This document shows positions 40,161-42,392 of a stretch of 64,000 bases of DNA, one piece after another. Origin of the DNA: Glycocaulis sp. (GTDB taxonomy: Bacteria; Pseudomonadota; Alphaproteobacteria; Caulobacterales; Maricaulaceae). The DNA lies in assembly GCA_022565665.1 (NCBI GenBank), contig JAIUMI010000002.1, forward strand, positions 186,001 through 250,000, given 5' to 3'. Each line of letters starts with the position of its first letter. Position 1 is the first letter of the stretch. The position numbers and the translations under genes are program-made. The notes beneath the pieces are model-generated. The model saw nothing but the letters and a program-made list of their open reading frames with translations, searched no databases and was not told the origin of the DNA.

Positions 40161-41192
40161 ATGCCGTTTCTGCGCACCAGCCTTGCCGCCTTCGCCGCTC
40201 TCGCCCTGGCCGGTTGCAGCCCGGCCTCCGAGCCGGAAGCGCCGGAAACACAGCCCGAAGCGGCCACCCCCTTTCCGACCCTGACCGGTGAGCTGCCGGC
40301 CATCGTCGCCCACCGGGGCGCGAGCGGGTATCTGCCTGAACACACCGAAGCGGCCTTCCAGCTGGCCTTCGACCAGGGCGCGGACATTCTTGAACCCGAT
40401 CTGATGGTCTCGCGCGATGGTGTGCTGATCGTGCGCCACGACCCCTATCTCTCCACCAGTTCTGATGTCGCAGACCGGCCCGAATTTGCCGACCGCCGCC
40501 GCGAACTCATGGGCCGTGAGGACTGGTGGGTGATCGATTTCACCGCCGGGGAGCTGCAATCGCTCAATGCGCGGCAGGTCTTCGAGGACCGCCCGCAGGA
40601 ATATAATGACCAGTTCCCGATTATGACCTTCGGTGATTTTCTGGACATGGTCGACGCGATGCAGGCACGCTGCAATTGCGACATCCCGGTCGAACCGGAA
40701 ATCAAGCTGCCGGCAGAACATGCGGCCATGGGGCTTGATCCTCTGCCCATCCTGATCGCGGAGCTGGAGGCGCGCGGCCTCAATACCGAAGACTCGCTGG
40801 TTATCATCCAGTCATTCGATGCACCCTTCCTGGAGCGTCTGCGCCCGCTCACCCCGCTGCCTCTGGCCATGCTGCACTATGGTGATGCGCCGGGCGGGGA
40901 CATGAACGGCTATTCGCTGGAACAGGTAGCGGAATTTGCCGATGCCATTGGCCCATATAAGGGCCTGCTGCTCAATCCTGACGGCTCCAGCACCGGCTAT
41001 GTGGAGCGGGCCCACGCGCTGGGCCTTGTCGTTCATGCCTGGACCCACCGCGATGACCGGCCTTCAGTAATTGAAGGCGGAACCAGCGATGACGAGCTGC
41101 GCGCCCTGTTCGCGCTGGGCGTCGATGGGGTGTTCACCGATTTTCCCGATACGGCGGTGCGCATCCGCGACGACATGCTGCGCGGGGAATAG
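40161..41192 (+). CDS. Glycerophosphodiester phosphodiesterase lipoprotein
   Basis: A 343-residue GDPD, hydrolysing glycerophosphodiesters to alcohol and glycerol-3-phosphate. The leader ends ALAGC (Cys19). HRGASGYLPEHT is the catalytic GDPD motif with two His, followed by ILEPDLMVSRDGVLIVRHDP for metal binding, and VHAWTHRDD and VDGVFTDFPD near the C-terminus. Predicted periplasmic, membrane-anchored. It may work with the neighbouring oxidoreductase only by position. Confidence 0.93.
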   Translation: MPFLRTSLAAFAALALAGCSPASEPEAPETQPEAATPFPTLTGELPAIVAHRGASGYLPEHTEAAFQLAFDQGADILEPDLMVSRDGVLIVRHDPYLSTSSDVADRPEFADRRRELMGREDWWVIDFTAGELQSLNARQVFEDRPQEYNDQFPIMTFGDFLDMVDAMQARCNCDIPVEPEIKLPAEHAAMGLDPLPILIAELEARGLNTEDSLVIIQSFDAPFLERLRPLTPLPLAMLHYGDAPGGDMNGYSLEQVAEFADAIGPYKGLLLNPDGSSTGYVERAHALGLVVHAWTHRDDRPSVIEGGTSDDELRALFALGVDGVFTDFPDTAVRIRDDMLRGE

Positions 41193-41252
41193 ATTTTTCA
41201 CGCCTGTGCGGGCAGGCTTCCTGCCGGATAACCGGCAGGGAACGCAAAACGC

Positions 41253-42392
41253 ATGGATCGCCGCTCGGCACTGAAACTGATCGCGGGCGCGGGGCTGGGC
41301 ATGGGCGCCGCCCCGCTTGTCTCCGCGCGCACGCCTTCGCTCGATCAACCACCAAACTTCGTACCTGCCGACATCTCGCCCCGGCGCATTATCCGTCAGG
41401 TGGTGGGCCTGCGCCCGTTCCGCGAGCAAGGTTATGTGGTGCGCGCCGAGCGCTTTGACCGGCGCAAGACGCTCGTTCACCATTACGGTCATGGCGGAGC
41501 GGGCGTGACCATGAGCTGGGGCACCGCCGTTGAGGCTGAGCGCGCACTTCTGGCCGCCACCAATGAACGCTCTGTCGCCGTGCTGGGCTGCGGCGTGATC
41601 GGGCTGACCACCGCCCTGCTTCTGCGCCGCCGGGGCATGGACGTGACCATCTATGCCGACGCGCTGCCGCCACACACCACGTCCAATATCGCAGGCGCGG
41701 TGTGGGGGCCGTCCAGCCTCTATCGCCGCCACGCGGTGGACGAGGCGTTTGTGGAGCGCTTCGTGACGGCGGCGCGCGTCAGCCAGCGCGCCTTCCAGCA
41801 CTATGCCAACGATCCGCGCTACGGGGTGTACTGGCTGCGCCAGTATGATTTTTCCTTGCGCACGCCAGAAGGCGAGCGCACCCCATCTGTCCTGGATGAT
41901 CTCTATCCCGGCCTCATCCGCCATACCGATCCTGACCGCTGGTTCGGCTATCCCAGCGTGGTTGAAAACCATGTACTGATGATCGATCCGGATATTTATC
42001 TGCGTGCCCTGATGGGCGATTTCGAGAATGCGGGCGGGCGCATCGTGACGGCCCGGTTCGAGGATGCGCGCGACATATCGCGGCTCTCCGAACGCGTGAT
42101 TGTCAACTGCACCGGGCTCGGGGCACGTGAACTCTTCGGCGATGATGAGCTGCGGCCCATGGCAGGCCAGCTGACCATGCTCCTGCCCCAGCCGGAGCTC
42201 GATTACGCCTATTCAGCCTTTGAGGGCGGGATACTCTACATGTTCCCGCGCAAGGGCTCTGTGGTGCTCGGCGGTACGACCGATCTGGATGTGGCCGATA
42301 CTGTGCCGTCAGCGGAAGAAACCGCCCGCCAGCTGGAAGGCCATGCCCGGATTGCGCGGCGGCTTGCGGGGCTGGAGCGGGTAGGGGGTTAG
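41253..42392 (+). CDS. Tat-exported D-amino-acid-oxidase-like FAD enzyme with permuted domain order
   Basis: A 379-residue FAD-dependent oxidoreductase with a twin-arginine-like leader ([18 protein letters not shown]). Canonical DAO has the GxGxxG dinucleotide fold first and the catalytic GFRPxR and HNYGHGGxG segment at its C-terminus. Here VGLRPFR (51-57, catalytic Arg54 by alignment) and HHYGHGGAG (76-84) come first, and [17 protein letters not shown] (110-126) and [12 protein letters not shown] follow. The protein ends [18 protein letters not shown], exactly the point where canonical DAO continues into RTGFRP. This is a circular-permutation arrangement. Likely substrate: D-amino acids, in the periplasm. 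Stops overlap with purA as TTAG. Confidence 0.85.

Follow-up and report, generated by a model that had tools for sequence, protein, structure and literature searches.

A gene of Glycocaulis sp. raises the question of whether an enzyme of the D-amino-acid oxidase (DAO) family can occur in nature with its segments in swapped order, and, if so, what that order is for. The gene lies in the window, the whole 64,000-nucleotide stretch of DNA that was analysed, and encodes a protein of 379 amino acids in which motifs that close the canonical DAO chain stand before the dinucleotide-binding motif that opens it. From the sequence it had been predicted that the C-terminal catalytic segment of DAO was moved to the N-terminus, next to a Tat-like leader, and that this move may permit export. 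The open reading frame and the positions of its three motifs were re-read from the sequence and proved correct (Table 1). Long antisense open frames overlie the gene (41064-41972 and 41389-41673, both on the minus strand), as expected for high-GC DNA.

Table 1. Features of the permuted gene and its upstream neighbour, in window coordinates
Feature	Position	Strand	Basis
Glycerophosphodiester phosphodiesterase-like (GDPD) gene (PF03009), 60 bases upstream of the permuted gene	40161..41192	+	Open reading frame and family match
Probable circularly permuted DAO-family flavoprotein, 379 aa	41253..42392	+	Open reading frame, PF01266, swapped PDB alignments
Twin-arginine leader, residues 1-26	41253..41330	+	Sequence, leader test, TatC in the genome; cleavage site putative
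Transposed piece, residues 44-101, counterpart of the C-terminal end in canonical DAO/D-aspartate oxidase (47-99 = 6rkf 280-334)	41382..41555	+	PDB alignments, rotation
VGLRPFR, residues 51-57	41403..41423	+	PDB alignment, family comparison
HHYGHGGAG, residues 76-84, equivalent to the DAO signature HNYGHGG	41478..41504	+	PDB alignment, family comparison
Junction of ancestral C- and N-termini, residues ~100-106	41550..41570	+	Alignment ends, rotation optimum 100-104, motif spacing
Core, residues 105-372: Rossmann FAD-binding half and substrate domain	41565..42368	+	Pfam, PDB alignments
GxGxxG (GCGVIG), residues 112-117	41586..41603	+	Sequence, family comparison
Tyr329, aligned with Tyr228 of pig/human DAO	42237..42239	+	PDB alignment, family comparison

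Segment order in the window protein

The protein matched the Pfam family PF01266 (DAO) with 111 bits against a cut-off of 27.9 (1.1e-31), and the match was split in two stretches. The features by which D-amino-acid and D-aspartate oxidases are recognized, namely PF01266, GxGxxG, Arg54, Tyr329 and HHYGHGG (residues 76-82), were all present, but the canonical order of segments, with the FAD motif first and GFRP/HNYGHGG last, was swapped. Arg54 aligns with the residue that we take to be the substrate-carboxylate arginine (R283 in human DAO), and the partner of Tyr329 in the pig and human enzymes is presumably the active-site tyrosine.

The best match in the PDB was the D-aspartate oxidase 6rkf, which phmmer aligned with the window protein in two stretches of swapped order. 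Residues 105-358 matched chain positions 12-261 with an i-Evalue of 2.7e-17, and residues 47-99 matched positions 280-334 with 5e-08; a family profile of 15 rows improved the two values to 1.2e-30 and 2.8e-11. As a sequence match, this swapped pair is far beyond chance. The alignments printed for the profile gave the same picture for 6rkf and 7ct4, and two stretches were found in 16 of the 17 DAO and D-aspartate oxidase chains tabulated from the search of this profile against the PDB.

Rotation of the sequence restored a single match. When the chain was made to start at residue 104, with residues 40-103 placed last, phmmer aligned positions 4-335 with positions 14-333 of 6rkf in one stretch. 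Residues 40-379 were then rotated in steps of 4 residues and scored against a hidden Markov model of 13 relatives of canonical order. The best single-domain score, 220.0 bits, was obtained at start 104 (219.7 at 100 and 218.5 at 108), compared with 157.2 bits for the best domain, and 211.9 over two domains, in the native order. With its optimum at start 104, the scan places the break between the segments at the ends of the canonical chain. In tblastn searches of plasmid sequences, 56 of 63 records were covered to at least 80% in one place by the rotated query and 4 of 63 by the native one; the native, permuted order was found in six plasmid records, five in one piece and a frameshifted Mesorhizobium copy in two.

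These alignments and rotations, together with conservation over many genomes, bear out the view that the C-terminal segment was transposed and not lost. The accompanying claim, that the protein ends exactly where canonical DAO continues into RTGFRP, holds to within about 5-20 residues and is not exact: the core aligns up to positions 261-266 of 6rkf, where the piece starts from 280, and up to 250 of pig DAO, where the piece starts from 271. At the sequence level, the segment that closes the canonical chain opens the mature protein, and the new termini fall within the stretch that leads into the canonical RTGFRP strand. Since the permuted chain runs through the same elements in rotated order, it is predicted to fold as an ordinary DAO. 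The permutation would also make sequence neighbours of GxGxxG and YGHGG, both of which contact FAD in the canonical enzyme. We consider it quite probable that this member of the D-amino-acid oxidase/D-aspartate oxidase family is a natural circular permutant, with a DAO fold, Tat export and periplasmic oxidation as its predicted properties.

Recurrence of the permuted order

Whether the arrangement is peculiar to one assembly was decided by its occurrence elsewhere. Among 61 close genomes the permuted order was found in 19, comprising the window's own genome, all 5 congeners, 3 of 31 others of the family and 10 of 24 others of the order, so its distribution outside the genus is patchy. In wider draws, which overlap and were searched with a profile built from permuted sequences, so that the counts are not unbiased frequencies, 16 of 385 genomes of the class matched at 1e-20 (15 permuted and one, L046, canonical), 20 of 398 genomes of the phylum matched (all 20 permuted, one of them outside the class), and among 229 genomes around this out-of-class holder 2 matched, namely the holder itself and the canonical L099. 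The rotated query recovered the same 20 of the 398 genomes and no canonical relative at 1e-8, with at most 5 first-look candidates scored per genome. In the window's own genome the rotated protein matched only the gene under study at 1e-8, and no second relative was found.

Named holders include Oceanicaulis sp. HLUCCA04 (MAG) and Glycocaulis albus at 87% identity, and the plasmid collection added Mesorhizobium, Rhizobium, Bradyrhizobium, Niveispirillum, Kozakia and the actinomycete Nonomuraea. A scan of genome contigs with the single protein gave two close relatives among 19 pattern matches, and a scan of viral contigs gave three among 56. Some copies have peculiarities of their own. In L059, the out-of-class copy of the phylum draw, an in-frame stop occurs shortly before the piece. 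The copy on a plasmid of Mesorhizobium onobrychidis OM4 (L112:3989-5052) is annotated as two overlapping FAD oxidoreductase genes. The possibility that piece and core have here become separate genes by a natural split was considered and rejected, since the break falls within GxGxxG, for which a frameshift is the simpler account. Among the other hits, L030 resembles by eye an MnmC-type protein.

Any rearranged gene must first be suspected of being an artefact of assembly, or of having arisen by chance when two DAO fragments fused in a single strain, and a misassembled fusion of this kind had been named in advance as the finding that would overturn the original prediction. We found nothing in its support and give it practically no probability. 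The search for homologues with both motifs in this order, which had been proposed as a check, returned many of them (19 of the 61 close genomes, 15 of the 16 class matches, 20 of the 20 phylum matches, every congener and the named records), and these independent occurrences rule an artefact out. In addition, dN/dS against the five congeners was 0.04-0.19 in the piece and 0.09-0.36 in the core, values far below 1 that indicate purifying selection on both. Therefore, the permuted form represents an established family of proteins rather than a sequencing error.

Junction of the old termini and origin

The comparison of permuted and canonical members was based on 47 and 13 sequences, respectively. 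These sets leave out L009 and L010 (whose identity values equal those of L015 and L014), the repeat loci L031, L032 and L047-L052, L064 (the same protein as L063), L067 (equal to L040), the frameshifted L112 and a Nostoc fragment, L111. The distance from YGHG to GxGxxG in the permuted sequences was 33 residues in 32 of them, 34 in 7, 37 in 6, and 32 and 39 in one each; the window protein has 34. The summed lengths of C-tail and N-lead in the canonical sequences, with the N-lead counted from the last Met before the motif, which is possibly not the true start, were 30-36 in 6 of 13 (L046, L100, L101, L103, L107 and L109) and 59-65 in 4 of 13, and no Met was found in 3 of 13. The similarity of the two lengths argues that the ancestral ends were joined nearly directly, an argument carried by six canonical sequences, because four have longer ends and three no readable start. 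At the sequence level, the old C-terminus runs into the old N-terminus across a few residues, almost without a linker.

A main tree was built from 41 permuted sequences in rotated form and the 13 canonical ones, omitting six near-copies (L013, L014, L023, L025, L035 and L038). One branch parted the permuted from the canonical sequences (support 98/94; 97% of 200 bootstrap trees). Some rows, L045, L099 and L105 among them, have long branches or odd composition. A core-only tree, made without the junction and the piece and omitting these three long-branch rows as well as the six near-copies, likewise had one branch that parted 40 permuted from 11 canonical sequences, with an SH-aLRT value of 100. 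These results are consistent with one origin of the permutation. Since the root of the tree was not fixed, the direction from canonical to permuted is assumed from the wider DAO superfamily, which is the basis for taking the canonical order as ancestral.

The permuted side comprised the clade of the window protein, a clade of L044, L054, L057, L058 and L062, a rhizobial/Nonomuraea clade, a large clade that lacks the active-site tyrosine (clade B) and the long branch of L045, a very diverged permuted member (1321 on, minus strand). The Nonomuraea sequence L065 is nested in the rhizobial clade, and a leaderless permuted gene with a thiamine-diphosphate enzyme behind it is common to Nonomuraea and rhizobia (L065, L066, L068 and L112). 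From sequence, this sharing looks like horizontal transfer.

The likely route to the permuted gene would be tandem duplication of a canonical gene, fusion of the copies and loss of the outer halves. No duplicated intermediate was seen among the 47 permuted and 13 canonical sequences, each of which has one YGHG-type motif per open reading frame. With about 55 residues, the piece does not suffice for a separate tree, and the trees above are of the whole chain and of the core, which leaves room for an origin of the piece and the core in two different DAO-like genes joined by domain recombination. However, no remnant of a canonical C-terminus follows the core, all 47 permuted frames contain a single YGHG, and in the rotation tests the piece completes the core to a single DAO domain. 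We regard such a recombination as very unlikely, and the same architecture would result from it. The descent of both parts from one permuted gene is the reading adopted below. The conserved permuted architecture is firm at the sequence level.

Leader and export

The Tat-like leader in the original prediction, a stretch of 25 residues, does have twin-arginine form, and the window protein combines the twin-arginine motif and a hydrophobic stretch with a TatC gene in the genome. No lipobox was found in its leader or in those of the five congeners. A twin-arginine leader was detected in 38 of the 47 permuted sequences, 25 with a lipobox and 13, the window protein among them, without. The leader test was negative in the other nine. 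By eye, L039 is cut at a contig end, L059 has its in-frame stop upstream of the piece, L045 appears Sec-like, and L026, L061, L063, L065, L066 and L068 have no leader in the open frame. The same test gave no twin-arginine leader in any of the 13 canonical relatives.

Permutation and export are thus usually found together but are separable, as the six leaderless members show. The frequency of the leader on the permuted side, with a lipobox in most cases, and its absence from the canonical relatives are what would be expected if the permutation had been selected because it permits Tat export, as was first proposed. We nevertheless regard this explanation as unlikely. Six permuted members are leaderless and one is Sec-like, and the Tat system carries folded cofactor proteins, those with FAD included, whatever their domain order. 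The association of leader and permutation is, moreover, beyond a statistical test because it has one apparent origin. Export as the cause is not supported, since these members keep the permuted order in the absence of a Tat leader; a link to export at the origin of the permutation is possible, and the leader is not needed for the upkeep of the order. In the mechanism that we favour, the holoenzyme would fold with its FAD in the cytoplasm, and Tat would then export it as a soluble protein in the case of the window gene and as a Tat lipoprotein in many relatives.

Catalytic residues and gene neighbourhoods

All 47 permuted sequences have Arg54, YGHGG and the three glycines of GxGxxG. Tyr329 is kept in 28 of the 47 and absent from 19, namely the 17 clade B members included in the tree and two near-copies omitted from it. 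Clade B (L027-L029, L033-L043, L053, L055, L056, L059 and L113), which stands on a long stem branch of 1.13, has lost the tyrosine with Arg54 and YGHGG retained, and its substrate possibly differs from that of the Tyr-bearing members. Since 19 of 47 lack this active-site residue, the family may not share one reaction. With its whole set of residues, the window protein is best guessed to carry out oxidation of the D-amino-acid type, and its likely role is to oxidize D-amino acids or similar substrates after export. In the periplasm, D-amino acids or similar 2-amino acids would be converted to 2-keto acids, and the electrons would pass to oxygen or, in some hosts, perhaps to cytochrome c; the permuted enzyme may be either an oxidase or a dehydrogenase.

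Gene neighbourhoods were compared in 41 regions with a crude gene calling, which picked antisense frames in some regions and missed the permuted gene in L116, L135, L138 and L139; L067 and L146 represent one locus. No cluster of neighbouring genes, leaving aside the permuted gene, was shared by more than 4 of the 41 regions, and with neighbourhoods so different the gene context gives no clear substrate. Nothing in the neighbours of the window gene, a purA-like gene and the GDPD gene, suggests D-amino acids. Of 12 other loci searched, three (L009, L010 and L114) have a GDPD homologue in the corresponding position. In Kozakia baliensis (L113:272-8975) a cytochrome c gene directly follows the permuted gene, and genes of the S9 peptidase and beta-lactamase families precede it; a TonB-dependent receptor is encoded nearby. 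An S9 peptidase gene follows the L128 copy. In L144 the permuted gene has a D-2-hydroxyacid dehydrogenase gene downstream, encoded on the opposite strand, and homologues of this dehydrogenase occur at other places in the L130 and L147 regions. The thiamine-diphosphate enzyme encoded after the Nonomuraea, Bradyrhizobium, Rhizobium and Mesorhizobium copies could take up the 2-keto acid product.

The diversity of these contexts and the loss of the tyrosine throughout clade B might also suit a structural or sensor homologue that has no amino-acid oxidase activity. This is rather improbable for the window protein, which has Arg54, Tyr329, YGHGG and GxGxxG in a chain under purifying selection. Returning to an enzyme, we offer a combined reading only tentatively, as less likely than not. 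A single ancient permutation may have founded a family of exported, often membrane-anchored D-amino-acid oxidases or dehydrogenases, which would act on periplasmic D-amino acids from peptides or the cell wall, deliver electrons in some hosts to cytochrome c instead of oxygen, and include a large Tyr-less branch with a new substrate. The contiguous FAD-binding part of the chain may ease insertion of the cofactor before Tat export.

Comparison with known systems

No description of a permuted DAO was found among the titles and abstract openings covered by a search of the open-access literature. The annotated plasmid copies are named plain FAD-dependent oxidoreductases, and under that name a branch of possible D-amino-acid enzymes can readily escape notice. 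Glycine oxidase ThiO (TIGR02352) belongs to the same DAO superfamily as the window protein, which scored 50.1 bits against its model, far under the cut-off of 250.8 bits, and identification as ThiO was rejected.

The closest known enzymes are the D-aspartate and D-amino-acid oxidases of PF01266 (6rkf, 7ct4, 2du8 and 1dao), with which the window protein shares GxGxxG, GLRPFR with the substrate arginine, HNYGHGG, a tyrosine before FP/IP and, after rotation, a match over the whole domain. It differs from them in its permuted segment order and its twin-arginine leader. None of the 17 DAO and D-aspartate oxidase chains found in the PDB has the permuted order, and in them the core matches the N-terminal side of the chain. 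DAO-like plasmid genes of canonical order from Streptomyces, Tsukamurella, Mycobacterium, Nocardia, Halostagnicola, Vibrio and Burkholderia are 27-34% identical over the rotated sequence among the matches listed; they have GxGxxG first and YGHGG last, and the canonical members tested had no twin-arginine leader, as described above.

DAO has long served as a model flavoenzyme and as a tool in biotechnology, and engineered circular permutants of flavoenzymes exist, for example of Old Yellow Enzyme. Those proteins are likewise circularly permuted flavin enzymes, but they are laboratory constructs of another fold, whereas the probable DAO permutant is natural and conserved. A natural, widespread permutant of DAO would allow a test, without any engineering, of which termini the fold accepts and of how segment order affects FAD insertion, and its family would offer an exported version of the enzyme.
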